Notes under the pieces: generated by a model
The model's database searches: none
The model's input: the letters and a program-made list of their open reading frames with translations, nothing else
What the model was told of the DNA's origin: nothing
Source: a bacterium
GTDB lineage: Bacteria; ARS69
Assembly: GCA_025774805.1 (NCBI GenBank)
Contig: JALGZR010000049.1
Span: 1 to 34,106, forward strand
Direction of reading: 5' to 3'
DNA: 34,106 nt
Position numbers and translations under genes: made by a program
Shown here: piece after piece, positions 1 through 26,048 of the stretch
Position numbering within the stretch: the first letter of the stretch is position 1
Layout: each line of letters begins with the position of its first letter

Positions 1-512
1 CTCTCGGAGATGTCGTATTGGACGTAGTCCGACACGAGGATCCCGCCGATGCGCTCGGCCGGCCACGTCTCCAGCCAACCGATGACCGCGACGGAGTGTC
101 CCTCGTCGGGCAGGATGTTCCAAAACGCCCGGTTCGTTCGATCCCACGCGTTGTAGACCCTCGCTCCGGAGCCCTCTCCCGACTTCCGGATCAAGAAGGG
201 CCTCCCCTGCTCCTTCGGTCGTCGGCCGGTCGCGATCGTCGTCCAGATGGTGGGCGACTTCTCGAGCGGAACGAGAGTGAGGAGATCGGCCCGCGTCCCC
301 TGCCTCATCAGGCGATCGAGCACCGGCATCCGTCCCTGCGCCACCAGGGGATCGACGATGTTCCAGTCGAGGCCGTCGATCCCCAGGATCACGAGAACGG
401 GGGAGGAGTCGTCCCGGGACGCGTCTCCGAGAGGACCGTCTCCGCCGCAGCCGGAGGCGAGACCGCTCACCAGGGTGAGGAGCGCGACGAGGGCCGCGAG
501 CCGCACGCTCAT
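1..512 (-). CDS. AP-superfamily phosphodiesterase lipoprotein, N-terminal part (cut by left edge)
   Basis: The first ~170 codons of a type I phosphodiesterase/nucleotide-pyrophosphatase-like member of the alkaline phosphatase superfamily; the rest lies beyond the window. The N-terminus is hydrophobic and ends in LASGC (Cys22), a plausible although not ideal lipobox, so the product is probably an envelope lipoprotein. The metal-binding Asp is seen in GIDG (Asp46). Ser87 in KSPTIW lies where the family has its Ser/Thr nucleophile, followed by the usual TG-x4 turn. The ATG overlaps the stop of the GT39-TPR gene as ATGA, so translation is probably coupled. It is the last visible gene of the ten-gene minus-strand operon. 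Substrate unknown; a phospholipid or glycan phosphodiester is only an inference from the neighbours. Confidence 0.8.
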   Translation of the reverse strand, partial: MSVRLAALVALLTLVSGLASGCGGDGPLGDASRDDSSPVLVILGIDGLDWNIVDPLVAQGRMPVLDRLMRQGTRADLLTLVPLEKSPTIWTTIATGRRPKEQGRPFLIRKSGEGSGARVYNAWDRTNRAFWNILPDEGHSVAVIGWLETWPAERIGGILVSDYVQYDISE

Positions 513-2823
513 GGCCGCCCGGCCTCCGGACGGGCCGATCGCCCTCCCCGTCGTCTCGCCGTGACGAGCTTCGGGTCGCCCCCCTCCTGTCGGAATCGCT
601 CGAACCATACGTCGGCCTTCTCCGTCTCTCCGAGAAGCCGCTCATGCACCAGGGCGATCTCCAGAAGCGGGGCGGGATCGTCGGGGGAGATTCGAATCTC
701 CGCCTCGAACTGCTCGATCGCGCCGGGCCCGTCCCCCCGGATCGCCGCAAGAATTCCGAGAGCGAACCGGACCCCCGGCAGGCGGGGTTCGGCCGCCGCC
801 GCCCGGAGAAGCGCGTCCTCTGCCCCGGCCAGCTTGTCGTTCTCCAGGAGGAGGCGGCCGAGGGCTCGGTAGGCGAAGGCACACTGACCGCCCTCCTCGA
901 AATACGCCCGGTAGGCGTTCAGCGCGGTCTCCGTCCTTCCGCGAAGGCGGGCCACCTCTCCGATCCGGAACTCCTCGCTCGCTGCAAAGCAATCCGAAAG
1001 GCCGAGCTCCCGGTGACGGTCGAGGTCTTCGAGGTAGGAGAGCCCCCGGGTGGCCCGGGCTCGGGCGACCGGGTTGTGCTGTCCCTCCCACCAGTCCTCG
1101 TACTCGAGCACCTCCCGGTAGAGAGCGCGGGCCGTGTCGGTCTCGCCGGCCCCATCTCCGCCAGGGAGACCTTGCCGAGCAGATACCGGGGCTCGATCTC
1201 GACGGAGCGCGCGTACGCCGCGCGGGCCTCTTCGAAGCGGCCGAGCTCGTCCAGCAGGGCCCCCCGATTGAACGGGGCGCGATAGTAGTCCGGGTTGAGC
1301 TGCTCCGCGATCTGGAAGTGTCGCATGCCCTCGTCCGGGTGGCCGGTCCGCGCGAGATCCACGCCCAGGTTCAGGTGGCACTTGTCGTAGTCGGGCTTCA
1401 GCGCGAGGGCGTCCCGGTAGTGACCGATCGCCTCCTCGTAGTCGCCGTTCGTGTCGGCCACGATGCCGTGCCGGTAGAGGATCTGGGCAATGCCCTTCGA
1501 CTCGTCGACTCCGTAGAAGTTGGCCTGCATCAGCCAGGCGACGAGGACGGCCGCCGCGACCGCTCCGCCCGCGCGCCGCCACCTCCCCCCCCGGACGGCA
1601 TCGATGATCTCCAGGAGACCGTACGCGGCGAAGGGAAAGAGGGCGGGCACGATGGGCAGCCGGTAGCGGGCCAGGACGAAGAAGAGGATCACCGAGGTGG
1701 AGTACGCGATCACGAAGAGGTACAGAAGGCTCCAGCGCCGCCACTCGCGCAGCGCGAAGGCCATTCCGATCACCGTGAGCGGACCCAAGAGGCCGAAGGA
1801 GAACGTGGGCCCTCCCAGCACCCGGGAGAACTGGCGGAAGTAGCCGAAGTGCTCGATCTGGGGCACTTCGTACGTGCTCCAGAAGTGCGTGAACTTCATC
1901 ACCAACCGGGAGAGAAACGTACCCGGATTCGCTCGGATGAACCGGAGGGTCTCCGCGAGGTAGAACGAGGACACCTCCGTGTAGGTCAGAGATCGACCGA
2001 GGACGCGCTCCGCCTCCGTCCGGCACTCGACGTCCTTGTGGAGGTCGGCGGTGATCGTCTCCACCGTGCCGTCGTCCCGCGTGACGTACAGCACCGGCGT
2101 CTCGTGCCCGCCCGACGCCATCGGACCGTTCCCGATGTAGAAGTTGAGACCGCCGTTCGTGGTAAGAAACGCGGCGTCGCCACTGCGCGCGTTGTGGATC
2201 GTGGCCGGCAGGATGAAAAGCAGCGTGCCCGCCGCGAGGGCGATTCCCCCGGCGAGGCCGTCCCGCCAGCGGCCGAGGCGGGGAAGCACGGGATCCCCCC
2301 AGGCCGCGATCAGCCAGAAGAACGCGGGCGGAGCGAAGAGGAGAACGTTGCCGCGGCCGAGGGCGTAGATGCCCAGCAGCGCCCCCGCGGCGAACGCGAA
2401 TCCCCACGACCTCCGCCGGGCGGCCTCGTACAGGAGCAGGAGATGGGACGTCGCGAGAAAGACCGTCACCGTCGGGTAGAGGATCGCGACGGAGTAGTAG
2501 ATCAGCGGTCCGTAGACGGCGTTCATGCCCGCGGCGACGGCGGCGAGCCGCCGCCCTCCCCAGAGCCGGGCGAGCAGATAGGCGAGGGCGACGGTCGCGG
2601 TGGAGAGGAGGAGGTCCTTCGCCTGAAGACCTTCGCGCAGGATGCGTTGGGCCCACTCGTCGTAGTACTTCGCGTCGAGTCCGAGGAAGTCGAACCAGGG
2701 GTAGGGTGCCATGCTCTGCCAGTGCAGCGCCCGCAAGACGAGAGCGACCAGCAGGACCCCGACGACATACGCCGTCTCCGTCGGAGTCCAGGGCGGGGCG
2801 ACCGGCGAGCGGGAGGGGGGCAT
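509..2823 (-). CDS. GT39-like membrane glycosyltransferase with C-terminal TPR repeats (frameshifted)
   Basis: Integral membrane protein of the GT39/ArnT-PMT type. A first membrane helix is followed by an acidic loop with LDAKYYDEWAQRI (roughly residues 50-62), many hydrophobic helices, and a late RYRLPIVPALFP segment typical of the family. From about residue 430 it continues as soluble TPR repeats (for example GDYEEAIGHYRDALALKPDY). The reading frame breaks at a CCCC run at 1150-1153: upstream the good frame runs to ...LAEMG, downstream it resumes at GETDTARALYREV. One extra G on the coding strand would restore one ~771-residue protein. The ATG at 2823 is chosen because GGAG lies 7-8 nt upstream; it follows the previous stop by 16 nt. 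Such proteins transfer sugars from polyprenyl-phosphate donors at the outer face of the inner membrane; the acceptor is unknown. Confidence 0.8.
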
Positions 2824-2839: not shown

Positions 2840-4405
2840 CTAATCGAGGTATCCGACGGCGCGGAGCTGCTCGATGATCGTCTCGTCCGGAGAAGTGGCG
2901 GGGGAGCCGGCCTCCCCCGGGCGAAGGAGACCATCGCGGGAGTCGCCGTCGAAGCGCATCGGTCGCTCGACGAAATAGGTCCGTGGGAAGATCGATCGCG
3001 GGATGTCGTGGACGTAACGGCGAGGGATCGTCTCCCCGAGGAGGTGCATCGTCAGGGCGGGAACGTCCTGCAGGTCGATCTTCCGGACCGGGCCGGGCAC
3101 CACCGGGCGACCGAAGGCGCCGAAGTATCCGAGGCGCCGGTGGTACCCGGAGAAGCTCGTCGGCGGTAGCGTCCCGGTGATCTCTCCCGGGGCCGGGCCG
3201 GGGCCGGGAGCGAACAGGAGTCCCTCCGCCTCCTCGGCGATGAGATCGGGACCGATCTCGAGACCGTAGCCGTGGTGGGGAACGGTCGACGGATCGTGGA
3301 CCGCGCGGATCAGAGGTGAGCCCGCCCGATCGGTCGCCTCCTCGAGAGCCGTGCGGAACGCGGCCCTCGTCTCGTCCGAAACGTCACCCAGGTAGAAGTC
3401 GCCCCCGAAGAGATTCCGGGTCGACGCGACGGCGGACCGGAGCTCGGGAGGAAGCGTCGCGAGGAAGGCCGTCTTCGAGATTCCGGCGTAGACGGGACCG
3501 AAACCGTGGTCCGCGAGGACCAGCAGGGTCGTGTCGGAGTCCAACCGATCGAGCACCTCACCGAGGATGTCGTCGCACCAGACGTAGATGTCCCGCACTG
3601 CGTTTCGCAGACGCGCGGGCGCGTCCCTCGGGTGGTGGGGATGCTCGGGATCGTGAAAACGCCAGAGGTGGTGCTGGATACGATCCGGAGTGGTGAAGAC
3701 GATGAAAGAGAACTCGGGTCTCCGGTCGAAGAGGAGTCCGAGCCCGATCTCCCGGCGCGCCCGGGCGAGCTCGAGCTTCCGATCGAGCCAGGCCGTCTCG
3801 CTCCCCGGGGAAGGAGGGCCGAGGAACGCGTCGCGCCGATACCCGCGGGCGACGATCTCTTCCTCGAGCGAGGGGGGAAACGTGAGCGGGGCCCCCTGCG
3901 GATAGGGGAAGCCCGCGATCATGAATCCGTTCACGGAGTCGGGAGGACAGGAGATCGGCACGTTGACGATGCCGACGGTGCGCCCGCGGCGGGTGAGGTC
4001 CTCCCAGATCGCGGGCGCGAGGCGCCGGGTCGCGTCGACGTAGCGCCCGCGGGGGTCGTCGCCCTCCGGCACCCAGAAGCTCCAGATGCCGTGATCGGAG
4101 GGGGGCGTGCCGGTGGCCACGGTGGTCCAGGCCGGCGGGGAGATCATCGGGACGGTGCTCCTCACCCCGCCGACCGCGCCCTCGCGCCGGAGTCGGGCGA
4201 AGTTCGGCAGAAGCCCCTCCCGCTCCCACCGCTCGACGAGCCGGGGATCGAGGCCGTCGAATCCGAGCAGGAAGACCGGCCCCGGAACCGCCCGCTCCGC
4301 GACCGTCGTCTCGGGGAGCTCCCGCTCACAACCCCCCAGTGCGAGGAGAGGGATCGCGATCGCGAGCCGGTCGAGACGGGGTCGGCGGAGGGACGGGGTC
4401 GGCAT
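2840..4405 (-). CDS. AP-superfamily phosphodiesterase lipoprotein
   Basis: A 521-residue alkaline-phosphatase-superfamily hydrolase of the type I phosphodiesterase group. A short hydrophobic stretch ends in LALGGC (Cys26), a good lipobox, so it is probably lipid-anchored in the envelope. Visible active-site elements: Asp50 in GFDGLD, Ser89 in MISPPAW as likely nucleophile, Asp240 and His244 in TTPDRIQHH, Asp298-His299 in ADHGFG, and a later PHHGYG. The metal site therefore looks intact. The C-terminus EQLRAVGYLD shares the GYL ending of the paralogue at 9405-11084. GGAG lies about 7 nt before the ATG. It sits 63 nt after the YfhO gene and 16 nt before the GT39-TPR gene. Family assignment is firm; the substrate cannot be told from sequence. 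Confidence 0.88.
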   Translation of the reverse strand: MPTPSLRRPRLDRLAIAIPLLALGGCERELPETTVAERAVPGPVFLLGFDGLDPRLVERWEREGLLPNFARLRREGAVGGVRSTVPMISPPAWTTVATGTPPSDHGIWSFWVPEGDDPRGRYVDATRRLAPAIWEDLTRRGRTVGIVNVPISCPPDSVNGFMIAGFPYPQGAPLTFPPSLEEEIVARGYRRDAFLGPPSPGSETAWLDRKLELARARREIGLGLLFDRRPEFSFIVFTTPDRIQHHLWRFHDPEHPHHPRDAPARLRNAVRDIYVWCDDILGEVLDRLDSDTTLLVLADHGFGPVYAGISKTAFLATLPPELRSAVASTRNLFGGDFYLGDVSDETRAAFRTALEEATDRAGSPLIRAVHDPSTVPHHGYGLEIGPDLIAEEAEGLLFAPGPGPAPGEITGTLPPTSFSGYHRRLGYFGAFGRPVVPGPVRKIDLQDVPALTMHLLGETIPRRYVHDIPRSIFPRTYFVERPMRFDGDSRDGLLRPGEAGSPATSPDETIIEQLRAVGYLD

Positions 4406-4468: not shown

Positions 4469-6958
4469 CTAAGGGGACCGCCCGGGACCCGACAAGGTTC
4501 CGGGCTCCGCGTCCTTCTTCCTCCCGCGATCCCGTCCCGGAATCGCCAGGGCTGCCCCCGTGAGAAGCAGACCGAGGAGGGAGAGAGCGACTCCCCTCCG
4601 GAAGGAGGACGGCCGGTACCTCAGCTCGACATCGTGGGGACCGGGCGGCAGGACGACTCCGCGAATCAGGCCGTACACCGGGAGGATCTCCGCGGGCTCC
4701 CGGTCGACCCGGGCGCTCCATCCCCGGCTGAAGGAGTCGGCGATCACGAGAGTCCGTTCACCGGGCGCATTCGTCCGGATGACGAGATCGTTCCAGGTGT
4801 CGGAGAGGACCTCGACGGATCCGGCGAAGGCCTCCGCCTTGTCGTCGCTCCGGCCGCGCACCTCGCCGTAGCCGACCCAGATCGCCTCGCGAGCCGGGTC
4901 GAACGCGCCGGTGGCGAGAATCTCCTTCATCTTCTCAGGCGAGATGCCTCGACCGCGGTCGACCAGGCGCACGCGGGGGAGGGCCTCCAGGTTGCGCCAG
5001 ATCCCGAAGCCGCTCGACGAGACCGGACGCCAGCCCTCGGCGGTGAACGGAACTCCGCCCACCGCCGCGCGAACCGCGAGGGCGTCGAGCAGCGGGTGCT
5101 CCATGGACTCGGCGCGCGTCGGGGCGACGATGCGCCGGCCGCTCCAGATGCCGTGCGAGAAGACGTCCTCGCCGAGCGCGATCTCGAGCATCTCGCCGAG
5201 GCGGCGATCGGTCAGCGCGTTGTAGCCCTGGACGTCTCGGAGTCGATACGGAACGTTCGTCGACGGCGGCAGCGCGCTCGAGAGCGGATAGGGGCGAACC
5301 GGCAGGTCGCGCCCGAAGCGGATGAACCGGCCGCCTCCGTGCGCGCGGTCCTCGTCGAGTAGGTCCGCGAGTCGCTCGATCGCCGGCGAGTCGGCGAAGA
5401 CCGCGCCGGGCGGGCGATCTCCCCGGTACGGCGCGGCGAAGAGGAAGAGCTGGACCGCGGCCAGGGCGAGCGGAATCCAGGAGACGACCCGGGACGCGGG
5501 AAGGAGAAGCGCGATCGCGGTCCCTCCGGCGAAGAGCGCCGCCGTCCGCGTCCGCTCGAGGACGTGCGCGACCGACTCGGGGGGGAGCCCTCCCGGCGGC
5601 AGGCGTCCCGGGTCAGCGCCGAGCCGTTCCGGAAGCGAGTCGCCGAGACTCGAGACGACCAGCATCCCCCCGACCGCGGCCAGGCCGATCGACGCGCCGT
5701 AGATCCGCCTCCCCCGGCCTCCCCTCCGGGCGAGATCACCGGCCGCGAGACCGGCGAGACCGGCCTGCGCGAGGATGACGAGAAACCCCACGCGGTCGAT
5801 CCGAGAGAACCGGAAGCCGGGAAGGACCTCGTAGGCCAGTCGGGCCAGCGGAGACCCGAAGGCGACGAGAACCGAGACCGCGAACAGCAGAGTGAACGGA
5901 AGGGCCGCGCGTCGGGTGCGCGGGCTGAACATGCCCCACATCGCCAGCAGGAAGATCGGCGTCCCGGCGAAGATCGAGTTGATCGAGTGCCGCAGGTAGA
6001 AGCCGTCGCCGCGGGAGAACCCGTGACCCCACTCGTCCAGGGTCAGAGGAGTCCCGAAGAACTCGGGGACGAGAAACCGAACGGCGTCGACGGGATGGAA
6101 GGAGCCGGAGATCACCGTGGCGTAGGGGAGCGCCGCGCGGGCGGAACGGGACGCGAGCTCGATCGTCGGAATGAGCTGGGCCGCCGCGAGAAGGGCGGCG
6201 AGAGCGCCGGCGACCCCGAGGGTGCCGATGCGGGGCACGGTGCGCGCGCGGGCCGCCGGGTCGGCGAGGCAGACCCCCGCGAGCACGATCCCCGCGGCGT
6301 AGGCGCCGTGAAGGGCGATCTGGGGCTGCCCGGCGAGCAGCAGGAACCCTCCCGCGAGACCGAGAAGCGCGGCGCGGCCGAGGCCGGGGCGTCGCAGCAC
6401 GTCGAGTCCGAGCGCGATCACCCACGGAATCCAGGACGCGGTGGCGAGAAACGGCGGCTGACCGAAGTGTTTCGCGAAGTACCCGTTCGCCACGAAGGCC
6501 ACGCCGCAAAGCGCGGCGACGGAGGAGGATGCTCCGAAGCGCCGGAGCAGGGACCGCACTCCCAGTCCTCCCCACGCGACGTGAAGAAACAGGAAGTAAC
6601 CCATCTGGGCCTTCGGCCCGAACGGGAGGAGAAACCAGTTCGGGGGGTAGAGGACCCCGGCCTGCACGTCGGCGAGAAACGGAGCGCCGCAGAACGTGTA
6701 CGGATTCCAGAGCGGGATCGTCTCCTCGCGCCACGCCGCGTGCAGCACCGCTCGCCGGGGGTAGTACGAGGTGGCGGAGTCGGGGTTGTGCGAGGGAGCG
6801 GCGCGTTCCTCCGGCGCGGCGGATTCGGACCAGGGCCGCCACCGCGCCATGTTCGCGGTCACCGCGACGCGCCCCCCGAACAGCTCCGGCGCGAAGAGAA
6901 TCGCCGCGAAGGCCACCACGGTGAGGGAGGGGACGATCCGGAGGATGCCGAGCCTCAT
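4469..6958 (-). CDS. YfhO-family multi-spanning membrane protein
   Basis: An 829-residue protein of the bacterial YfhO family, GT-C-like membrane proteins involved in glycosylation of envelope or teichoic polymers in the few studied cases. Around residues 80-105 it carries the family signature IPLWNPYTFCGAPF followed by DVQAG and YPPNWF. About a dozen hydrophobic stretches follow, then a soluble beta-rich domain and a last C-terminal helix. The ATG at 6958 overlaps the upstream GT39 stop as ATGA; the reading frame is open much further upstream but that part is a shadow of the GT39 gene. It probably transfers sugars from polyprenyl-phosphate carriers made by the GT2 encoded just upstream. The acceptor is unknown. 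Confidence 0.85.
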   Translation of the reverse strand: MRLGILRIVPSLTVVAFAAILFAPELFGGRVAVTANMARWRPWSESAAPEERAAPSHNPDSATSYYPRRAVLHAAWREETIPLWNPYTFCGAPFLADVQAGVLYPPNWFLLPFGPKAQMGYFLFLHVAWGGLGVRSLLRRFGASSSVAALCGVAFVANGYFAKHFGQPPFLATASWIPWVIALGLDVLRRPGLGRAALLGLAGGFLLLAGQPQIALHGAYAAGIVLAGVCLADPAARARTVPRIGTLGVAGALAALLAAAQLIPTIELASRSARAALPYATVISGSFHPVDAVRFLVPEFFGTPLTLDEWGHGFSRGDGFYLRHSINSIFAGTPIFLLAMWGMFSPRTRRAALPFTLLFAVSVLVAFGSPLARLAYEVLPGFRFSRIDRVGFLVILAQAGLAGLAAGDLARRGGRGRRIYGASIGLAAVGGMLVVSSLGDSLPERLGADPGRLPPGGLPPESVAHVLERTRTAALFAGGTAIALLLPASRVVSWIPLALAAVQLFLFAAPYRGDRPPGAVFADSPAIERLADLLDEDRAHGGGRFIRFGRDLPVRPYPLSSALPPSTNVPYRLRDVQGYNALTDRRLGEMLEIALGEDVFSHGIWSGRRIVAPTRAESMEHPLLDALAVRAAVGGVPFTAEGWRPVSSSGFGIWRNLEALPRVRLVDRGRGISPEKMKEILATGAFDPAREAIWVGYGEVRGRSDDKAEAFAGSVEVLSDTWNDLVIRTNAPGERTLVIADSFSRGWSARVDREPAEILPVYGLIRGVVLPPGPHDVELRYRPSSFRRGVALSLLGLLLTGAALAIPGRDRGRKKDAEPGTLSGPGRSP

Positions 6959-8703
6959 CGCGTATCCTCGCCGGACGCCCCGGCCCGGGTGAGCTCGAAT
7001 CGGAGACGGAGCGCGGCCGGCAGTCCGGGATCGATCGCGAGCGCCCTCCGGAGAAGCGCGCGGCTCGAGTCGGGGTCGTCGGCGAGGATCGCCCGCCGGT
7101 ACAGGCTCCAGGGTCGGTCCACCACTCCGGGCCCGGACAGGAGGCGATTCGCCTCGTCGGGACGGCCGCGCCCGACCTCGGCGTCCGCGGCCATCCAGGC
7201 GAGACGGTGATGGCCGGGCAGGGGAAGCGCTCCCGGCGCGGCGATCGCGCGGGCGAAGGCGGCGTGACGCGGACCCGGGCGAAGGTACACGCCGGCCGTG
7301 ATCGGCCAGACCGCGATCCACGCGGCGAGCGCCGCCGCCGCCCAGGGGAGTCCCCGGCGGAGAAGACGTCGCCGGTCCGGAGGATCGTCGGGATCGAACG
7401 CGAAGATCGCGACGGCCAGAAGGAGTAGGGGAACGAGCGGCTGGTGCATGCGGGACACGCCGAACGCGAACCCGTGGAGGACGAGGAACAGGACGATCCA
7501 CGCCGTGGTCAGGGAGCGGAAGGCGCTCGGGCGCAACGCCGCCAGAGCGGCGGGACCTCCGATCAACGCGACGGCCGCCGTCCCCCAGGTCATGAGGGTG
7601 AGAGCGACTGCGAGCGACGGTGACACGATCCCGTACCAGTCCCGAAGGACGTGCCGGGGCAGAAACGTGTCCGGAGCCCAGAGGGCGGCGATCTTGAGGG
7701 GAACGCGACGGAGGGCTCCGCCCGGATCCTCCGCGAGCGCCCGGCGCGCCTCGGCTCGAAACCAGAGCTCGGCCTCGGGCGATCCGAGTACGGTGACGCC
7801 CCGGGCCGCCAGCCGTCGCGGCACCTGCGTGCGCCACGTCCCGTCCGGCTCGAACGCGGCCAGGCCCGGATCGAGCCCCCGCGCCGCCAGGCGCTCGGCC
7901 CACGCCTCGGTCGTACCGTTCTCGGGGGGAAGCCCGACCGCCCAGAGGGAGGGGAGATCGCGGGAAAGATACTCATTGTGGCCGAGCCAGAGATTGTACC
8001 CGGCGTTCGTGTCGATCAGCACGGGGCGTCCGACCTGCGCGCTGACGAACAGAGACCACGGAGCGATCACGAGGATCCCCGCGATCGCCGCCCCCGCCGC
8101 GCGCCGCAACGCGGGCCGGTCGCGTCGCCGCCCGGCGAGCCACGCCGCCGAGAGGAGCAGCAGCGGGACCGCGAGGGAGCGCACGAGGGCCGCCGCCCCC
8201 AGGAGCAGTCCGGCGGTCACGGCGGGACCGGATCGTTCCTCGGCGTCCGCGGTCCACAGGCGCTCGAAGGCCAGCATCGCCGGCAGCAGGAACAGGGTCT
8301 CGGACCAGAGCAGATGGGAGAAGGCGACGTGGGACGGATGGAACGCCAGGAAGGCGCCCGCGGCGAGTCCGGCCCGTTCTCCGCGAATCCTACGCCCGAG
8401 GCGATAGACGACAAGCGCCGTCGCGGTCGAGAGAAGCGCCTGGAGCAGGCGAACTCCGATCGTCCGCCCTCCCCCGGCGAGCAGCCCCAAGGCGACGAAG
8501 GCCTGGTACCCCGGCGCCCGCCACGGATGGGGAGCCTCCCCGGCGACGATGCGCTCACCGAGCTCGAGGAACTCCTGCTCGTCGTATCGGGGAGGAAGGT
8601 CGGCGAAGACGATCGACAGAACGACCTTGATCAGGCCCGTGGCGATCAGGATCGTGCGAAAGGCGGGGCTCAAATCCGTCCCCGCACGTGGATGTCCGTC
8701 CAC
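6955..8703 (-). CDS. GT39-family membrane glycosyltransferase
   Basis: A 582-residue polytopic protein of the GT39/ArnT-like type. The first helix (about residues 15-35) is followed by the acidic catalytic-type motif PPRYDEQEF (Asp41, Glu42) and a WRAPGYQAF segment, then repeated hydrophobic helices. The C-terminal ~100 residues are soluble and TPR-like (PDSSRALLRRALAIDPGLPAALR). Expected donor: a polyprenyl-phosphate sugar. Two starts are possible. ATG 8703 overlaps the restored GT2 end by 34 nt. TTG 8673 overlaps the GT2 stop as TTGA and has GGGGA close upstream. The longer form is given. The gene's stop overlaps the YfhO start as ATGA. Expression is likely affected by the frameshift in the upstream GT2 gene. 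Confidence 0.82.
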   Translation of the reverse strand: MDGHPRAGTDLSPAFRTILIATGLIKVVLSIVFADLPPRYDEQEFLELGERIVAGEAPHPWRAPGYQAFVALGLLAGGGRTIGVRLLQALLSTATALVVYRLGRRIRGERAGLAAGAFLAFHPSHVAFSHLLWSETLFLLPAMLAFERLWTADAEERSGPAVTAGLLLGAAALVRSLAVPLLLLSAAWLAGRRRDRPALRRAAGAAIAGILVIAPWSLFVSAQVGRPVLIDTNAGYNLWLGHNEYLSRDLPSLWAVGLPPENGTTEAWAERLAARGLDPGLAAFEPDGTWRTQVPRRLAARGVTVLGSPEAELWFRAEARRALAEDPGGALRRVPLKIAALWAPDTFLPRHVLRDWYGIVSPSLAVALTLMTWGTAAVALIGGPAALAALRPSAFRSLTTAWIVLFLVLHGFAFGVSRMHQPLVPLLLLAVAIFAFDPDDPPDRRRLLRRGLPWAAAALAAWIAVWPITAGVYLRPGPRHAAFARAIAAPGALPLPGHHRLAWMAADAEVGRGRPDEANRLLSGPGVVDRPWSLYRRAILADDPDSSRALLRRALAIDPGLPAALRLRFELTRAGASGEDTR

Positions 8704-9412
8704 ATGCCGGCGAGCTCCCCGAGGGTGTGCAGTATGTGGCTGGGACGGACCGTCGACTCTCCCGCCGTCCGCGGGTAGTGCCGGACCCCGAGTGCCGGAC
8801 CCCGACCTCGGTCATCTTCAATCCCAGCTTCGAGGCTTTCGCGAGAATCTCCGTGTCCACGAAGAAACGCTTCGATTCGATGTGGATCCGGTCGAAGATC
8901 TCCCGTCGGAAAAGCTTGAACGCGCAGTCCACGTCCCTCACGCGGATGCGGAACAAGATCCGCACGAGGAGATTGTAGCCCCACGAGAGGACGAGCCGGG
9001 AGAACGGATCGAAGCGGTAGATGCGGTACCCGCACACGAGGTCGTAGTCGTCGATCGCCGCCAGGAGATTCTTCAGCTCCCTCACGTCGAACTGGTTGTC
9101 GGCGTCGGTGTAGAACACCAGCGGCATCGTCGCCGAGGTGAAGCCGGTGCGGAGGGCCTGCGCGTAGCCCCGGTTCTCGGCGTGGGCGAGGAGGCGGAGC
9201 TTCGGAATCTCGTCCCGAAGCGACTCGCACTCCTCGTGCGTTCGATCCCGGCTGCCGTCGTCGACGACGAGGATCTCGTAGTCGTCGAAGGCGAGATCCG
9301 TGAGGACCTCGTTCACCGATCGGACCTGCCGTCCGATGTTCTCCGCTTCGTTGTAGGCGGGGAGAACGACCGCGATCCGCCGCCCGATGCCCGCGGGAGG
9401 AACCTCAGCCAA
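8670..9412 (-). CDS. GT2 polyprenyl-phosphate sugar synthase-like glycosyltransferase (frameshifted by 14-bp duplication)
   Basis: GT-A fold family 2 glycosyltransferase resembling dolichol/undecaprenyl-phosphate mannose or glucose synthases. Visible motifs: VVLPAYNEAENIG near the N-terminus, VVDDGSRDRT (about 49-58), YTDADNQFD (about 101-109, DxD region), RIRVRDVDCAFKLFRR. It would make the lipid-linked sugar used by the GT39 and YfhO proteins downstream. The frame breaks near residue 200 in a perfect tandem duplication of CGGGGTCCGGCACT (8777-8804). With one copy removed the protein continues VRHYPRTAGESTV and ends at 8670, giving 242 residues. Without repair translation runs on in the wrong frame to 8555. 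The start is TTG 9412, overlapping the upstream stop; no ATG or GTG is available nearby, so the start is uncertain. Confidence 0.8.
8777..8804. repeat. Perfect 14-bp tandem duplication inside the GT2 gene
   Basis: Two head-to-tail copies of AGTGCCGGACCCCG on the plus strand (8777-8790 and 8791-8804). Fourteen is not a multiple of three, so the second copy shifts the GT2 reading frame. Deleting one copy restores a family-typical C-terminus. Either replication slippage in the strain or an assembly artefact. Confidence 0.95.
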
Positions 9413-11084
9413 GGTAACCCGCCCTCTTGAGGCGCTCCTTGATCTCGTCCATCTCGTCCTTCGTGAGACCGAGATCGGAATCGGGGGGAGCATCGCCCTC
9501 CGGGCCGGCGGGTGGCGCGCTCCGCACCGGGTTCCCGGCGTTCTCCCGGTCGGTGAACGTCTCGGTGAGGACCCGCCCGTCGAAATCAGAGGGCACCCCC
9601 TCGCCGAGATAGTGGAGGATGGTGGGCGCGACGTCGATCAGGTTCGCGCCCTCGGTGGTCGCGCCCGCCCGGACGCCCTCGCCCCGCACCAGGAGGATCC
9701 CGTTCATCCGGTGATCGCCGGAGTTCCCGTAGACCGGTTCGATGAAGCGGTGGGACGTGAAGTCGACGGTTCCCAGGGCCTTGTTCCGCATGTCCCGCGG
9801 GAGAAATGTGAGGTCGGGCGCCCGGTCGAGGAACGGACCGTGGTAGAGGTCCTCGCGACGGTGGATCTCCCCTATGAGAGATTCGCCGGTCTCCGGGTCG
9901 GTCAGCTCGCGCAGGCGGAGCGTGAGCTCATCGAGAACCCCCTCCGCCTCCGCTCCGGACTCCACGATGCCGCGTGGCTCACGCCCCTTGAGATTGAGAA
10001 AGAGCTGCCCGTAGTTCCCCTTGGAGTAGACGCGAGTCCGCGACCAGTCGACGTCGTTCAGCGACAGGAACAGCCGGTTGATGCGCCGGATCCAGCGGGA
10101 ACGGGTGCCCACCCCGGACGCGAGACGCAACCGCGCGAGTCCGGTGCGCATCGAGAGCCGGTATCCGGTGGCGGGCGAGAGCCCGAGCTCGAAGAGGGAC
10201 CGCTTCACGAACGTCGTGAGCGCGGGCTTCAGCCGCAGGAATCCCTCGCGGAGAAGCCAGACGTTGAAGACGAGAAACCGGTGGATGGGACCGAAGCCGT
10301 GGTCGGAGAGCACGATCGTCGTGGCGCCGTCGGCGGCCTCCATCCACTCCCCGACGACCGCGTCGATTCTCCGCCAGTAGGCGAGACAGCGCTCTCCCAG
10401 GATCGAGGACTCGGCGGGGTCGTGCAGCGGGTGATCCGGATCGAGCACGTGCCAGAGCTCGTGGCCGAACCGATCGCTGCCCCAGACGTGCAGCATCGCG
10501 AATTCCCACTCGCGGTTTCGCAGCAGCCACGAGTACGCGCGCCGGTTCGCCTCCAGCACGCGATCGAGCTCATCGAGGACCGCGTGGCCGGCCCCTCGAC
10601 GGTAGACCTCCACGTGATAGAGCTCGTATCGTCCCGTCGCCTCCTCGATCTCGTCGAGCAGCTCCGGAGGCCAGGTGAAGCCCCGATCCCCCATCGGCGT
10701 GAGGAAGTCGCCGACGAGGCAACCGTTCACGGGCGTGGGCGGATACGTGACGGGCACCCCGACGACGAGCACCCTCCGGCCCGCGTCCCCGAGAAGCTCC
10801 CAGATCGTCCGTCCCACCCGCGTCCGTGAGCTCACCGGGGTCTCCTCGAAGCCGCCCGGCTCGCGCAGGAGAAACTCGAAGATCCCGTGCTTGCCCGGAT
10901 TCTTCCCGGTCATGAAGGAGCACCAGGCGGGCGCGGTCACGGGGGGGACGATCGAGCGGAGGGATCCGGATGCGCCTTCGTCACGCAGGCGCGCGAGGTT
11001 CGGCATCGAGCCGTCGGCCAGCCACGGCCCGATCAGATCGAAGGTGGCGCCGTCGAGGGCGATGACCAGAACCCGGCGCTTCAT
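9405..11084 (-). CDS. AP-superfamily phosphodiesterase (cytoplasmic-type, no signal peptide)
   Basis: A 559-residue type I phosphodiesterase/nucleotide-pyrophosphatase-like protein. Metal and active-site elements all look present: Asp11 in ALDGAT, Thr50 in VTAPAW as likely nucleophile followed by MTGKNPGKHGIF, Asp204 and His208 in GSDRFGHELW, Asp261-His262 in SDHGFG, and a later GDHRMNG. Unlike the two lipoprotein paralogues it starts directly at the catalytic domain (MKRRVLVIALDG), so no export signal is visible. The C-terminus KERLKRAGYLG ends in the same GYL tail as the paralogue at 2840-4405. The ATG lies 3 nt after the upstream PHP-lipoprotein stop, and its own stop overlaps the GT2 start. 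Substrate unknown. Confidence 0.88.
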   Translation of the reverse strand: MKRRVLVIALDGATFDLIGPWLADGSMPNLARLRDEGASGSLRSIVPPVTAPAWCSFMTGKNPGKHGIFEFLLREPGGFEETPVSSRTRVGRTIWELLGDAGRRVLVVGVPVTYPPTPVNGCLVGDFLTPMGDRGFTWPPELLDEIEEATGRYELYHVEVYRRGAGHAVLDELDRVLEANRRAYSWLLRNREWEFAMLHVWGSDRFGHELWHVLDPDHPLHDPAESSILGERCLAYWRRIDAVVGEWMEAADGATTIVLSDHGFGPIHRFLVFNVWLLREGFLRLKPALTTFVKRSLFELGLSPATGYRLSMRTGLARLRLASGVGTRSRWIRRINRLFLSLNDVDWSRTRVYSKGNYGQLFLNLKGREPRGIVESGAEAEGVLDELTLRLRELTDPETGESLIGEIHRREDLYHGPFLDRAPDLTFLPRDMRNKALGTVDFTSHRFIEPVYGNSGDHRMNGILLVRGEGVRAGATTEGANLIDVAPTILHYLGEGVPSDFDGRVLTETFTDRENAGNPVRSAPPAGPEGDAPPDSDLGLTKDEMDEIKERLKRAGYLG

Positions 11085-16422: not shown

Positions 16423-19167
16423 TTACCGCAGTCGCACGATCGGGCGCACCCGGCTCTCTCCGTCCGCCGTCAGGCGCACGAAGTAGACCCCGGACGCCAC
16501 GCGCTGTCCGTCGGCGGTCCGGCCGTCCCACGTCACGCTGCTCCGTCCGGCCGGCAGCATGCCGCGGGCCAGTGTGCGCACCAGCCGTCCGCTCACGTCG
16601 TAGATCGTGAGCTCCGCGGGTCCGGCCGCCGGCAGCGAGAAGGAGATCCCCGTGGAGACCCGGAACGGATTGGGAGCGCCCGTTCCGAGCGTGAGCGGCA
16701 CGCGGGCCGGTCCCGTGTCCACTCCGGTGCCCGGACTGTACGGCTCGCCGAAGAAGTCCTTGAGAATCGTCTCGACGTTCCCGCGGAGATCCGTGTGGTT
16801 CATCCGGTACGGCCGCCCCGCGATGTGGGCGAGCTTTCCGCCGTCGGGACGGTGCGTCCCGCCGCCCGGAGGAATCGCGATGACGCCGCTCCCCTTGACG
16901 CCCGAGACATTGGACTGGAACAGCAGCGTGCTGTTCGGTCCCACCGTCGTCGAGAAGACGTCGTTCCAGTTTTGGGTTCCCGTCAAGGCGATGTCGTCGA
17001 ACGACGGGTGAACGGCGGTGAGGTCGTTCAGGGTGATGTTCGTGCTGGCCCAGGTGATGCCGAGGTAGGTCGTGAGATCCCCCGCGAGGAACGTCTGGCC
17101 GCGGCGCGACAGCAGCAGCACGTTGCCCCCCACGTCGAGGTAGGACTCGATCGGGGTCTCGGTCCACTTCGGAAGGTCGCCGTTGAAGTTGTTGCCGACC
17201 CAGACCACGGCCGAGAACTTGCCGAGGAGATCGCCGGGCACCGGTCCGTGGCCGAGCGGGGTCGGCAGATTCGCCGGGTAGCCGGAGGCCGGCTCGGGGA
17301 AGGCATCCCAGAACGTGAACGGCAGGTCCGCCCAGAAGCAGCTGTCCGCGTAGGCGGACTGGATCTCCGGACTGTAGGTGTCCCAATCGACACCGTTCAC
17401 CACGAGCAGGCCCTGATCGAAGGTCGGGTCCGTCACGACCGTCTCGACCTCGCGGAGGATCCAGCGGTCCGGGTCGAGGACCACCGACTCCACGTCGCCC
17501 GTCACCGGGATCTGGTAGTTCTCGAGCGCCAGGGAGTTCTGCACCACGTGGTCGTACGTGCTGGTCGTCGTCGTCACGCGCACGTCGATGGGCAGCGTGA
17601 ACAGACCGGTGTTCGTCTGGATCTGCTCGATCGTGAGATCGAGCGTGCCGGGAACCGAGTCGTGCCACGCGTACCGGTAGATCGGGTAGTACTCCCCGTA
17701 GATCCACTGCTGGAAGAAGTCATCGAGATCGATTCCCGACGCCGCCTCCATGACGTCGCGGAAGTCCTCCGTGGACGCGTTCCCATGACCGTAGAGGCTT
17801 CGGTAGTCGGCGAGCCCGTCGAAGAAGTTCGTCTCACCGACGATGTGACGGATCATGTGCGGGATCCACGACGCCTTGTTGTAGGTGAGGTTGACGTCGA
17901 AGATGTCGTCGATCTGCGGGTTCTCCACGTAGATCGTTCCCGGCCCGTAGTAGGCCGCTCCGTCCATGTACTGCTGATAACGGGCGAAGCCGTCCGACTG
18001 CTCCTTCCAGTAGGCCTCCGACCAGGTCGCGAATCCCTCGTTCAGCCAGATGTGTTTGAAGTTGTAGCAGGTGACCTCGTCCCCCCACCACTGGTGCGCC
18101 AGCTCGTGGGAGATGAGGTCCTCCGACCAGCCCCCCATGCTGCTCAGGGTCTGGTGCTCCATCCCGCCGCCCCACACGAATTCCGCGTGACCGTACTTCT
18201 CGTTCACGAACGGATACTCGCCGTACCCCTGCGCGAACGCGTTCAGCATGGGCACGACCAGGGCGTAGGTGTCCTGCACGTCGTCGTAGTGGCTCGGGAA
18301 GACGTAGTAGTCCACCGGCATCGGGGAGCCGCCGCCCTGCGGCGTGTAGGAGTGCGAGAAGATCGTGTAAGGGTGAATCGCGAGCGAGACCAGATAGGTC
18401 GACATCGGGTAGTTCGTCTTCCAGTGGAACGTGCGTGTCGTCCCGTTGTCGACGTCGGAGATCAAGAGACCGTTCGAGGCGACGTAGAGATGATCCGGCA
18501 CCGTGACGCGGATGTCCACGGAGTCGGCCTTGTCGCGCGCGATATCCTTGCACGGCCACCACTCGCGGGCTCCGAAGGGCTCGCTCAGGGTCCAGATCAT
18601 GCTCTGGCCGTCGAAGGTGCTCCATCCGAACGAGTTGCCGGCGGGGTTGCCCGAATAGGTGACGGCGATGACCACCGACTGCCCGGCCGTGTAGGTCGTG
18701 TCGAGATCCACGGTCAGGAGGTTGTCCGGATGCGACCACGTCGTCGGGCTTCCTCCCAACGTGACGGCGGAGACCGTCATGTCGGCCGTCAGATTCAGAT
18801 CGAACGTCGTCTGGTCGGTGCCGGTCAGCTCCGCGGTGGTGGTGACGGTACCCGAGAGGGTCTGGATCGAGGGGTCGAGCGTGAGATCGAGGTCGTAATG
18901 GTGGACGTCCCACTCGTGTTGCTCCGGAGAGCGCAGGCCCGAATCGCGTGCCCACGCCTCGGCCCGCCGGGTCTTGATGGCCGCCTCTTGCGAGCGGTGC
19001 TCCAGGAGTCGCTCGCGTAGCGCCGCGGGGTCGTCGTCGGGGGCGGCGAGGGGGGCGGCCGGCGGTTCGGCCCGGACCGGAAGCACCGGCGTCGTGGCCA
19101 CGAGAGCGAGGAGGAGAATCGGGACGAGCGCCAGAATCGGCGCAAGTCTCCGCAGGTCGGTGGGCAT
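16423..19167 (-). CDS. Secreted M1-family zinc aminopeptidase with GATase-like domain and FlgD-Ig/sorting tail
   Basis: A 914-residue exported protein. Residues 11-33 look like a Sec signal peptide (cleavage plausible after VRA). The M1 core spans about 85-500: substrate-binding loop GGGMEH (333-338, in place of GAMEN), zinc motif HELAHQWWGD with His354, Glu355, His358, third ligand Glu377 in LNEGFATW, and a probable catalytic Tyr429 in TYNKAS. Residues ~585-810 resemble a ThuA/class I glutamine-amidotransferase-like fold (LLVVNGVDW, FSAVVWVGNNFNG, YLDVGGNVLLLSRRG), without an obvious catalytic triad. The last ~85 residues (APNPFRVSTGISFSLP to GVYFVRLTADG) match FlgD-Ig/type IX-like C-terminal domains. 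Start ATG 19167 has GGAGTGA close upstream. Likely digests peptides outside the cell; surface anchoring is inferred. Confidence 0.9.
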   Translation of the reverse strand: MPTDLRRLAPILALVPILLLALVATTPVLPVRAEPPAAPLAAPDDDPAALRERLLEHRSQEAAIKTRRAEAWARDSGLRSPEQHEWDVHHYDLDLTLDPSIQTLSGTVTTTAELTGTDQTTFDLNLTADMTVSAVTLGGSPTTWSHPDNLLTVDLDTTYTAGQSVVIAVTYSGNPAGNSFGWSTFDGQSMIWTLSEPFGAREWWPCKDIARDKADSVDIRVTVPDHLYVASNGLLISDVDNGTTRTFHWKTNYPMSTYLVSLAIHPYTIFSHSYTPQGGGSPMPVDYYVFPSHYDDVQDTYALVVPMLNAFAQGYGEYPFVNEKYGHAEFVWGGGMEHQTLSSMGGWSEDLISHELAHQWWGDEVTCYNFKHIWLNEGFATWSEAYWKEQSDGFARYQQYMDGAAYYGPGTIYVENPQIDDIFDVNLTYNKASWIPHMIRHIVGETNFFDGLADYRSLYGHGNASTEDFRDVMEAASGIDLDDFFQQWIYGEYYPIYRYAWHDSVPGTLDLTIEQIQTNTGLFTLPIDVRVTTTTSTYDHVVQNSLALENYQIPVTGDVESVVLDPDRWILREVETVVTDPTFDQGLLVVNGVDWDTYSPEIQSAYADSCFWADLPFTFWDAFPEPASGYPANLPTPLGHGPVPGDLLGKFSAVVWVGNNFNGDLPKWTETPIESYLDVGGNVLLLSRRGQTFLAGDLTTYLGITWASTNITLNDLTAVHPSFDDIALTGTQNWNDVFSTTVGPNSTLLFQSNVSGVKGSGVIAIPPGGGTHRPDGGKLAHIAGRPYRMNHTDLRGNVETILKDFFGEPYSPGTGVDTGPARVPLTLGTGAPNPFRVSTGISFSLPAAGPAELTIYDVSGRLVRTLARGMLPAGRSSVTWDGRTADGQRVASGVYFVRLTADGESRVRPIVRLR

Positions 19168-19300
19168 GGGGTCACTCCGGATAGAGAAGAATCGAGCGGG
19201 GCGCTCGAAGGGCGGAACGAATGGGCGATTCCGGGGGGGGTCGCGAGGCGGGCCCGCGGCCCGAGTCAACCAGTCAGCCCGAGTCGGGGGGCACCCCCTC

Positions 19301-19320
19301 ACTATACCCATTTTATCAAG
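19301..19320 (-). promoter_or_regulatory. Candidate promoter patch upstream of the M1 peptidase gene
   Basis: The only AT-rich patch in this GC-rich gap. On the minus strand it holds TATAGT (19306-19301), a possible -10, with CTTGATAAAA next to it. No convincing -35 at the proper distance was seen. The leader to the ATG would be about 130 nt. Confidence 0.25.
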
Positions 19321-19368
19321 ATTCGCGATCGGCGTGGTAGTGTGACCGACCCCTTTCCCTGTTCCTTT

Positions 19369-19385
19369 GACCGCCGGAGGCGGTC
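19369..19385. terminator. Hairpin after malQ
   Basis: GACCGCC and GGCGGTC form a perfect 7-bp stem with a 3-nt loop, about 20 nt after the malQ stop on the minus strand. No U-tract follows, so its role in ending the malQ transcript before the M1 gene is only suggested. Confidence 0.35.
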
Positions 19386-19403
19386 CCCCCCCGTCTCGGG
19401 GGC

Positions 19404-20975
19404 CTATTCGCACGCTCCGTCCGCGGCCGAGGCGCCCGGCGGTGCCCCCGCGGGCGCTCTCCCGGTCGACTCGGTGAGCCCGGCCAGGCGCCGGACGAGA
19501 TCCTCCGTCCACGCGCCGGGAGCCATCCGCCACTCCCAGTGGCCCTCGGGGCGGCCCGGGATGTTCATCCGTGCCTCCGAGCCCAACCCGAGGACGTCCT
19601 GGATCGGGAGGATCGCTGTGTCGGCCACCGAGGTGAGTGCGAGACGGATCAGGTCCCAGTGGATCTCGGAGCCGTCCGTTCCGAGGTATACCAGCACGCG
19701 CTCCCGCCGCATCCGGCGCTCCGCCTCGTCCTCGGTGGTGTTCTCTCCCGAGGAGAACCAGCCGACCGCGGTGTCGTTGTCGTGCGTGCCGGTGTAGACC
19801 ACGCAGTTGCGGACGTGCCCGTGGGGCGCGTGGGGGTCGTTCTTCGAGTCCGGGCCGAACGCGAACTGGAGGACCCGCATCCCCGGGAACCGCCAGCGAT
19901 CCCGCAGCGCCTCGACCTCGGGAGTGATGACACCCAGATCCTCCGCCACGATCGGCAGCTCTCCGAGATCGCCGCGCAGCGCCTCGAAGAGAGCGTCCTT
20001 CGGCCCCTCCACCCACCGCCCGTCCTCGGCGGTCGGCTCGCAAGAGGGGACCTCCCAGTAGCTCTCGAACCCCCGGAAGTGGTCGATCCGGACGCGATCG
20101 TAGAGGCTCAGGGCGGCTCGCATCCGGTGGATCCACCAGGAGAAGCCCCGTTCCGCGTGCTCGCCCCACCGGTAGAGCGGGTTCCCCCAGAGCTGGCCCG
20201 TCTCGCTGAAGTAGTCGGGAGGGACCCCGGCCACGACGCGGGGACGGCCGTCCTCCCCGAGATCGAAGAGCTCGGGATGCGCCCAGACGTCCGCGCAGTC
20301 GGCCGCGACGAAGATCGGCACGTCGCCGAGGATCGAGATTCCGAGCCCGTTCGCCCTCTCCCGGATCCTCCCCCAGTGCTCGGAGAAGAGGAACTGGACG
20401 AAGAGATTCCGGTCGACGGACCGCTCCCAGACCCTCCTCGCCTCGGCGAGCGCCCCCTCCTCCCGCCGGACGAGCTCCGGAGGCCAATTGACCCATGCGG
20501 CCCCGTGCCCCCCCTCCTTGATCGCGGCGTAGAGGGCGTAGTCGTCGACCCAACCTCGTTCCCGCTCCCGGAACTCCTGCAGACCCCGGGCGAGGCTCTC
20601 GGACCCCCGTCCGGACCGGAACGAGGCGTGGGCCTTCGCGAGGAGGGCCGTCCGCCAGGGGACGACGGCGGAGAAATCCACCAGCTCGGGGGGAAACGAC
20701 GGGGCCGCCGCGAGATCGCCCTCGTCCAGGAGTCCGTCCGCCACCAGCCGCTCGAGGGAGACGAGAAGGGGATTGCCCGCGAAGGCGGAATCGCACTGGT
20801 ACGGGCAGTTGTTTTCCCCGGTAGGACCGAGTGGGAGAACCTGCCAGATCGACTGCCGGGCCCGGGCGAGTGTGGCGAGGAAGGCCTCGGCCTCGGGGCC
20901 GAGCTCGCCGATTCCCCCCGCACCGGGCAGGCTGGTCGGATGGAGGAGGATTCCGCTGGCTCGCGAGAACTCCAT
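19404..20975 (-). CDS. malQ: 4-alpha-glucanotransferase (amylomaltase)
   Basis: GH77 disproportionating enzyme that moves alpha-1,4-glucan segments between maltooligosaccharides or glycogen in the cytoplasm. At 523 residues it is close to the compact Thermus-type enzymes. Seen: SGILLHPTSLPG at the N-terminus, SIWQVLPLGPTG, GDVPIFVAADCADVW, catalytic nucleophile Asp298 in RIDHFRG, acid/base Glu345 in AEDLG, and Asp399 in THDND. The start is ATG 20975, with GGAGTGA directly upstream; a GTG two codons earlier falls inside that Shine-Dalgarno sequence. The UDP-glucose pyrophosphorylase encoded nearby on the other strand suggests local storage-glucan/UDP-glucose metabolism, although the two are not co-transcribed. 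Confidence 0.95.
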   Translation of the reverse strand: MEFSRASGILLHPTSLPGAGGIGELGPEAEAFLATLARARQSIWQVLPLGPTGENNCPYQCDSAFAGNPLLVSLERLVADGLLDEGDLAAAPSFPPELVDFSAVVPWRTALLAKAHASFRSGRGSESLARGLQEFRERERGWVDDYALYAAIKEGGHGAAWVNWPPELVRREEGALAEARRVWERSVDRNLFVQFLFSEHWGRIRERANGLGISILGDVPIFVAADCADVWAHPELFDLGEDGRPRVVAGVPPDYFSETGQLWGNPLYRWGEHAERGFSWWIHRMRAALSLYDRVRIDHFRGFESYWEVPSCEPTAEDGRWVEGPKDALFEALRGDLGELPIVAEDLGVITPEVEALRDRWRFPGMRVLQFAFGPDSKNDPHAPHGHVRNCVVYTGTHDNDTAVGWFSSGENTTEDEAERRMRRERVLVYLGTDGSEIHWDLIRLALTSVADTAILPIQDVLGLGSEARMNIPGRPEGHWEWRMAPGAWTEDLVRRLAGLTESTGRAPAGAPPGASAADGACE

Positions 20976-21084
20976 GGTCACTCCGGGCTCCGAGGGGTGA
21001 TGGCTGCCGGGCCGGGCGACCGCCGAGCTTAGCCGGGGGGGTCGATCCCGCCAAGGGTCGGATGGCCCCGTTCGCGTGGATCCG

Positions 21085-24720: not shown

Positions 24721-26007
24721 GTGAACGTCGTGATCATCGGCAACGGAATCACCGGAGTCACGGCCGCCCTCCGCCTGCGGGAAAGGCGTCCCGACTGCAA
24801 CATCACGATCGTTTCCGGGGAATCCACGTACCACTACTCCCGGCCCGCGCTCATGTACCTCTACATGGGACACATGACGTGGGCCGACACGAAGCCGTAC
24901 GAGGACGACTTCTGGAAACGGCAGCGCCTCGACCTGGTGCGCGGCTGGGTGACCGGCGTCGACGTCTCCGGCAGGCGGATCACGCTGCATGGCGGCGGGA
25001 GTCTCGCCTACGACAAGCTGCTGATCGCCACCGGATCGAAATCGAACAAGTTCGGCTGGCCCGGCCAGGACCTGCCCGGCGTGCAGGGGTTCTACGACCT
25101 GATGGATCTCCGGCTCCTGCACGAGAATACGGTCAGAGCCGAGCACGCGGTGATCGTCGGGGGCGGTCTGATCGGGATCGAGCTCGCCGAGATGCTCCAC
25201 TCCCGCAATCTCCACGTCACCTTCCTCGTTCGGGAGAAGTACTACTGGAACAACATCCTCCCGTCCGAGGAATCGAAGATGATCTGCCGGATCATCCGCG
25301 CGGCGGGAATGGACCTGAGGCTCTCGACGAACCTGAAGGAGATCGTCGACGACGGAACCGGTCGCGTGACGGGCGTCGTCACGGATACCGGGGACCGGAT
25401 CGACTGTCAGCTCGTGGGGCTCACCCCGGGCGTCTCCCCCAACATCGATCTGGTGAAGGACTCTCCGATCGCGACGGGTCGCGGGGTTCTGGTCGATCTC
25501 TCGCTGCGCACGAACGTGCCTGACATCTTCGCCGCCGGCGACTGCGCGGAGATCGTCACGCCCGACGGAGAGCGCAATCTCATCCAGCAGGTCTGGTACA
25601 CGGGCAAGGCGCAGGGGCGCGTCGTCGGGGACGTCCTCGCCGGAGACGAGCGCGAGTACGAACCGGGGATCTGGTACAACTCCGCGAAGTTCCTCGACCT
25701 CGAGTACCAGACCTACGGCTTCGTGAGCAACGAGCCGCGGGAGGGCGAGCGGCACCTCTGGTGGGAGCACCCCGATCACGGCCACGGAATCCGCATCGTG
25801 CACGACGGGCGGAAGGTGACCGGATTCAACCTGATGGGGATCCGCTACCGCCACGAGGTCTGCGAGCGGTGGATCCGGGAGGAGCGGCCGATCGAGTACG
25901 TCCTCGACCGGCTCGCGGAGGCGAACTTCGATCCCGAGCTCTACCGGCGCCACGAGAGCAAGATCGTTCCGGCGCTCCGGGCACAGATCGCGAGGGCGGC
26001 GACATGA
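24721..26007 (+). CDS. FAD-dependent pyridine-nucleotide-disulphide-type oxidoreductase
   Basis: A 428-residue two-dinucleotide-binding-domain flavoprotein related to NADH-dependent nitrite reductase/rubredoxin reductase-type enzymes. Seen: FAD-binding VVIIGNGITG (residues 3-12), YDKLLIATGS, the NAD(P)-binding VIVGGGLIGIELAE (144-157), and the FAD-contacting IFAAGDCAEIV near 270-280. No CxxxxC redox disulphide next to the second Rossmann motif, so it is not a classical disulphide reductase. The start is GTG 24721 with GAGGAG 8 nt upstream. It is followed closely by a membrane polyferredoxin gene, a natural electron partner. Substrate unknown. Confidence 0.88.
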   Translation: MNVVIIGNGITGVTAALRLRERRPDCNITIVSGESTYHYSRPALMYLYMGHMTWADTKPYEDDFWKRQRLDLVRGWVTGVDVSGRRITLHGGGSLAYDKLLIATGSKSNKFGWPGQDLPGVQGFYDLMDLRLLHENTVRAEHAVIVGGGLIGIELAEMLHSRNLHVTFLVREKYYWNNILPSEESKMICRIIRAAGMDLRLSTNLKEIVDDGTGRVTGVVTDTGDRIDCQLVGLTPGVSPNIDLVKDSPIATGRGVLVDLSLRTNVPDIFAAGDCAEIVTPDGERNLIQQVWYTGKAQGRVVGDVLAGDEREYEPGIWYNSAKFLDLEYQTYGFVSNEPREGERHLWWEHPDHGHGIRIVHDGRKVTGFNLMGIRYRHEVCERWIREERPIEYVLDRLAEANFDPELYRRHESKIVPALRAQIARAAT

Positions 26008-26048
26008 TCGCGTTCCGGGCGCCGATCGCGAGGGCGACGGCATGATCG
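25974..26048. repeat. Imperfect 38-bp tandem duplication at the oxidoreductase/polyferredoxin junction
   Basis: Two head-to-tail copies with period 38: one from about 25974 and one from about 26012. The best-matched core is GATCGCGAGGGCG followed by (G/A)CG(A/G)CATGATCG, at 25986-26010 and 26024-26048. Both copies contain an ATGA: the first holds the oxidoreductase stop, the second the start of the next gene. Confidence 0.85.
26004..26045 (+). other. 13-codon ORF bridging two ATGA junctions
   Basis: ATG 26004 overlaps the upstream stop as ATGA, reads MIAFRAPIARATA, and stops at a TGA that overlaps the next gene's ATG (26042), again as ATGA. It is a by-product of the 38-bp duplication. It may keep reinitiating ribosomes moving from one gene to the next; a peptide function is unlikely. 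Confidence 0.45.

Follow-up and report, generated by a model that had tools for sequence, protein, structure and literature searches.

Perfect tandem repeats of variable copy number have been described in bacterial genes and promoters. Passages of one report (PMC2955026) attribute allele conversion at a 6-bp repeat in mutL of Salmonella and E. coli to slipped-strand mispairing; there the working allele has three copies, conserved in close relatives, the repeat is in frame and conversion was observed. Parts of another (PMC12817950) describe perfect repeats of about 57-58 bp in promoters of M. tuberculosis Erdman, the copy number of which varies among reads and strains, is possibly reversible and is hard to handle in short reads. 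The site considered here is a 14-bp tandem duplication in a glycosyltransferase (GT2) gene, found in a 34,106-nt stretch of bacterial DNA (hereafter the window). Like that of mutL, it is a short perfect repeat, within a coding region, on whose copy number function depends and, like the Erdman repeats, it is one whose copy number may be reversible and is hard to establish from short reads. It differs from the former in that the working allele has a single copy and the relatives have no repeat, and from the latter in its position within a coding region. A search of the literature on tandem duplications, whether as reversible frameshifts or as faults of assembly, found no title or abstract on this locus. 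As it stands, the 14-bp change amounts to either a commonplace lesion or a fault of assembly.

To judge from its sequence, the gene encodes an ordinary ArnC/DPMS-like polyprenyl-phosphate glycosyltransferase (GT2) for which sugar transfer is predicted; the family named in the original prediction was borne out by a Pfam match above cut-off (PF00535, E 4e-30). Intact relatives share the fold of ArnC, DPMS and GtrB, with the GT-A domain and the interface helices seen in DPMS and ArnC. This was assessed on a model of one relative, L034 (pLDDT 92.5), which matches Pyrococcus DPMS (PDB code 5mlz) with a Z score of 26.7 and an rmsd of 2.4 over 227 residues (model 8-241, chain -2 to 232), ArnC with Z up to 24.3 and GtrB with Z up to 22.4. 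The D-x-D-x-Q motif and a loop arginine are likewise common to these enzymes and the intact relatives. The relatives differ in that they end after the last interface helix, with no transmembrane helices beyond it in the model secondary structure, and the window's copy differs further in being without both the loop and the helix. In gene content, the operon resembles the CsbB-GtcA-YfhO system of multi-component transmembrane glycosylation, as outlined in parts of PMC8035078, in that a GT-A gene stands beside PMT_2 and YfhO-like GT-C genes; it differs in having phosphodiesterase genes interleaved among them.

The GT2 gene as it stands occupies 8555-9412 of the window (minus strand), with a likely TTG start at 9412 that was placed through the conserved TTG-GC(T/C) context and the point at which similarity begins in relatives. 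The frame is correct through VRH and is followed by an unrelated tail. The unit CGGGGTCCGGCACT (minus strand) occurs here in two exact abutting copies, the first in coding order at 8791-8804 and the second at 8777-8790, and TRF reports an array at 8777-8805 with a period of 14, 2.1 copies and 100% match; the perfect duplication described in the original prediction is therefore present. No other match to the unit with two or fewer mismatches occurs in the 34,106-nt window, and the window corresponds to contig C240 of the 284-contig assembly, where the duplication site is present once. Ten sequences of 0.9 Mb each were simulated with a third-order Markov model, and perfect tandems arose at means per 0.9 Mb of 8.9 (period 9), 3.2 (period 10), 1.2 (period 11), 0.4 (period 12) and 0.1 (period 16), with none at the remaining periods; since no perfect period-14 tandem arose in any of the ten, the array exceeds chance. 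Microhomology at the junction amounts to 1 bp. A DNA hairpin at the array was considered and rejected (fold z-score -0.55; 54 of 200 shuffles fold equally well). The translated frames show that two copies put the gene out of frame, as had been claimed: the protein runs on as SGSGTTRGRRESRR... until a stop at 8555-8557. The normal C-terminus is indeed found in the alternative, ancestral frame, in which the tail reads VRHYPRTAGESTVRPSHILHTLGELAGMWTDIHVRGRI followed by a stop. This displaced coding sequence (8670-8795, minus strand) is open in the ancestral frame and retains its third-position bias.

The locus was compared with four other genomes from family and phylum searches, each of its own genus and all from the same family as the window. 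Judging by identical match positions, two of the four seem to correspond to Gemmatimonadota bacterium DHS20C21 and bacterium M3-22_Bin_282. In all four, the GT2 orthologue is a single open frame (75-82% identity) with one copy of the 14-bp unit, and the alignment opens a 14-base gap exactly at the second copy; a tandem repeat at the site occurs in none of them. Such a comparison of homologous loci had been suggested beforehand, and its outcome, one copy and an intact gene, is uniform within the family set. Differences between the displaced tail and its counterparts lie mostly at third codon positions, as in the gene body. Since the tail bears no sign of decay, the duplication is either recent or absent from the cells altogether.

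We consider it very probable that the second copy arose sporadically and recently, as a 14-bp tandem duplication that put an ordinary GT2 gene out of frame. It would then be one of a class of short duplications and deletions that occur across unrelated genes of the assembly, rather than a dedicated switch. The single copy in each of the four relatives and the undecayed tail argue for this reading, as do the lesions found elsewhere in the window's own assembly (G000), a draft of 284 contigs with 5.06% contamination. This was sampled in 101 stretches, the window included (1,470,255 non-N bases of 5,098,847, or 29%), which yielded 26 perfect tandem arrays with a period of at least 10 that is not a multiple of three. 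By frame reading, five of these are gene-breaking, with units of 10, 14, 16, 20 and 88 bp. Besides the GT2 gene they affect an MFS transporter (16 bp, L171:19528; Pfam MFS_1 on both sides), a PAS histidine kinase interrupted within the IAHDFNNIL box (10 bp, L198:10797; Pfam PAS, then HATPase_c), a HAMP histidine kinase (20 bp, L188:16136; Pfam matches the downstream part only, the frames at this place being open over 516 and 467 aa in two relatives) and a DHH phosphoesterase which, from its DHH/DHHA1 domains, we take to be NrnA-like (88 bp, L132:5471; Pfam DHH, then DHHA1 below cut-off). Junction microhomology is 0-2 bp across all five, and the broken genes are functionally unrelated, showing no concentration among surface or adaptive functions. 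Two further arrays were set aside: that at L145:8405 (10 bp) has a full kinase domain in both frames, which look like two genes, and that at L182:3975 (11 bp) probably marks the end of one gene.

Breaks of a complementary kind were found with relatives' proteins as queries. Frame changes accompanied by 12 to 20 residues missing relative to homologues are present in an ABC permease (L152:1535), at L158:5908 and in another GT2 gene (L125, about 19670), and these look like out-of-frame deletions of tens of bases. The last such comparison gave eight rows in 155 G000 gene regions, two of them at the 8777-8804 site itself, the trusted rows being those of L152, L158, L171 and the window; candidates in L169, L178, L186, L206 and L152 (at 19320) were rejected as non-coding, repeat or ambiguous. 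The reciprocal control gave three ambiguous rows in 141 gene regions of the relative G002. Also counted with the deletion-like breaks is a second frame break in the window, at 1147-1162, in the GT-C/TPR gene (2934-509, minus strand) that closes the same operon: this gene is one frame in G002 (L122) and two here (919-2934 and 509-2656, minus strand), with no perfect tandem array listed at 1147-1162.

Other genomes were sampled as a control. In 819,001 bases of G002, none of four out-of-frame arrays is gene-breaking, and 80 GTDB loci (710,279 bases) hold, besides two 10-bp arrays, four out-of-frame arrays with a period of at least 13; among these four none is clearly gene-breaking, one being too near a contig end to judge. 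Five breaks against zero in G002 give a Fisher p of 0.17 (uncorrected); the probability that all five fall in G000 by chance is 0.11 against G002 and 0.03 (binomial) with the 0.71 Mb of GTDB loci added, again uncorrected. The excess in G000 over the controls is no more than suggestive, which counts against the reading proposed here, as does the reading of only 10 of the 26 arrays, the window's included, as translations, the other 16 having passed through a GC-phase screen only. A mixture of one- and two-copy cells would also be compatible with the assembled sequence alone. In general, an apparent switch in one draft genome should be compared with the remainder of its assembly before any mechanism is put forward.

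Whether such a sporadic lesion lies in the assembly or in the cells is close to evenly balanced, with an assembly or library error somewhat the more likely. Error, to which we give not quite an even chance, would mean that the cells have one copy and that the second came from abutted overlapping contig ends or a chimeric read. Abutting of contig ends, chimeric reads or faulty repair of breaks could produce motif-free duplications and deletions some tens of bases long. Microhomology-free changes of this size in unrelated genes, the conserved DHH phosphoesterase among them, favour an error together with the undecayed tail, the fragmentation of the draft and its contamination. Conversely, the duplication sites lie away from contig ends, and the control genome, from another assembly, is not significantly different. 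Common assemblers, moreover, require reads across a junction, which speaks for a real molecule, and a perfect duplication shorter than the usual k-mers assembles from reads that carry it.

A real but non-adaptive loss mutation in the sampled lineage, as one step in a decay of the operon or of the whole genome, is a serious contender that we rate a little below an assembly error. The duplication has the look of a clean single event and the break at 1147-1162 lies in the same operon. The high conservation of the gene within the family and the absence of decay in its tail tell against such a loss. The same holds for the MutS and MutL domains, which G000 carries in open frames: they leave no indication of a mutator, and loss of mismatch repair was rejected as a cause. 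Ku-dependent end joining was rejected as a source of microhomology-free duplications: a Ku domain (PF02735) has no match in G000, although three of the four relatives have one. Error and null mutation had both been named as alternatives in the original prediction and, given the single-copy relatives and the lesions elsewhere, fit better than its main proposal.

That proposal was a slippage switch, in which loss and regain of the 14-bp copy would toggle the lipid-linked sugar donor and, through coupling, the genes behind it. Directly upstream of GT2 is a gene of the type I phosphodiesterase/nucleotide pyrophosphatase family (9405-11084, minus strand; PF01663), and downstream on the same strand lie a PMT_2 (GT39-type, GT-C) glycosyltransferase gene (6955-8673; PF13231, 45.4 bits against a cut-off of 26.1) and a YfhO-like membrane protein gene (4469-6958) whose ATG overlaps the PMT_2 stop as ATGA. 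Of the identities given to the downstream genes the first stands, whereas the second falls below the Pfam cut-off (PF09586, 22 against 28.5 bits); YfhO-like orthologues of 56-61% identity occur in three relatives. G002 and G004 share the order GlyS, DUF3604, phosphodiesterase, GT2, PMT_2, YfhO-like, phosphodiesterase and GT-C/TPR, as does the G001 stretch examined from DUF3604 onward. GT-A and GT-C genes stand together throughout, GT2 adjoining PMT_2 in the window and three relatives; the fourth relative's contig ends within PMT_2. The window has at least two paralogous phosphodiesterase-type genes (2840-4405 and 9405-11084) among the operon's glycosyltransferases, a third copy being indicated by cross-matches in relatives, and two related PMT-type genes are interleaved in the conserved operon.

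A close stop/start overlap between GT2 and PMT_2 is seen in all four relatives. The ancestral GT2 stop overlaps the likely PMT_2 start in the tetranucleotide TTGA (8670-8673, minus strand), the corresponding junction being TTGA in L005 and L008 and GTGA in L006 and L007, and PMT_2 protein similarity begins at the TTGA point in L121 and L123. The two-copy frame moves the GT2 stop about 118 bases into the PMT_2 gene, a displacement that would plausibly weaken reinitiation at PMT_2. This conserved overlap is one of several features in keeping with a switch: two 14-bp copies form a repeat whose copy number changes the frame, as in phase-variable genes, and a perfect duplication could be lost by slippage. 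Surface glycan genes are, in addition, common targets of phase variation. Repeat copy number is described as phase-variable for the M. tuberculosis promoters in parts of PMC12817950. A reversible switch at the GT2 locus is nevertheless unlikely. The site holds two copies only and, with 1 bp of microhomology at the junction, a one-copy allele would have no pre-existing repeat to slip on for regain. Since no relative has the repeat, and equivalent breaks affect an MFS transporter, two kinases and an NrnA-like gene within 1.47 Mb, the switch reading is unsupported.

It is likewise very doubtful that the two-copy protein is functional, with its catalytic domain whole and the new tail tolerated. 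Residues 42-202 of the translated frame, which make up the Pfam GT2 domain, do lie entirely ahead of the shift, and the metal motif D-x-D-x-Q (D104, D106 and Q108, invariant in 25 homologues) survives as DADNQ. The shift, however, deletes the final helix and the conserved H-x-P-R loop, including the residue equivalent to Arg202 in Pyrococcus DPMS. H-x-P-R occurs at this position in 78 of 84 homologue rows (two of which are repeats, L034 being L005 and L035 being L008), and H208, P210, R211 and G214 (L034 numbering) are invariant in the 25-sequence alignment; the acceptor-loop arginine and the helix after it are present in the relatives and gone from the window protein. By offset, rather than residue by residue, R211 maps to about Arg202 and the last helix, 222-239, to the second interface helix. 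According to parts of PMC5526996, the acceptor loop of PfDPMS is connected through Arg202 to the metal site and the donor phosphate, and the lipid is bound by the interface helices, its site being formed by IFH2. With the Arg202 equivalent and the last helix lost, the two-copy protein is likely to be inactive. The 55 C-terminal residues of a relative, searched against the PDB, returned only two weak hits, both to unrelated nucleoporin sequences.

A further proposal, a genome-wide burst of microhomology-free short tandem duplications that frameshifted many genes and left a broad, non-dedicated, slippage-reversible reservoir including the glycan operon, strikes us as very improbable. Duplications that were both real and reversible would offer a widespread means of inactivating genes reversibly.

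Several minor observations were made alongside. Five GT2 homologues (L058, L068, L081, L085 and L098) lie in very long open frames, of 701-836 aa from the start of the match, and may be domain fusions. In a Chloroflexi homologue (L066:4900-5000) the frame is lost within G-rich low-complexity sequence immediately past H-L-P-R; coding then seems to continue in a different frame. The window also contains a 38-bp tandem repeat at 25972-26048, its two copies 87% alike, and a long aminopeptidase-like ORF at 16423-21054 that ends in a C-terminal type IX secretion sorting domain (TIGR04183, 31.7 bits against a cut-off of 23).
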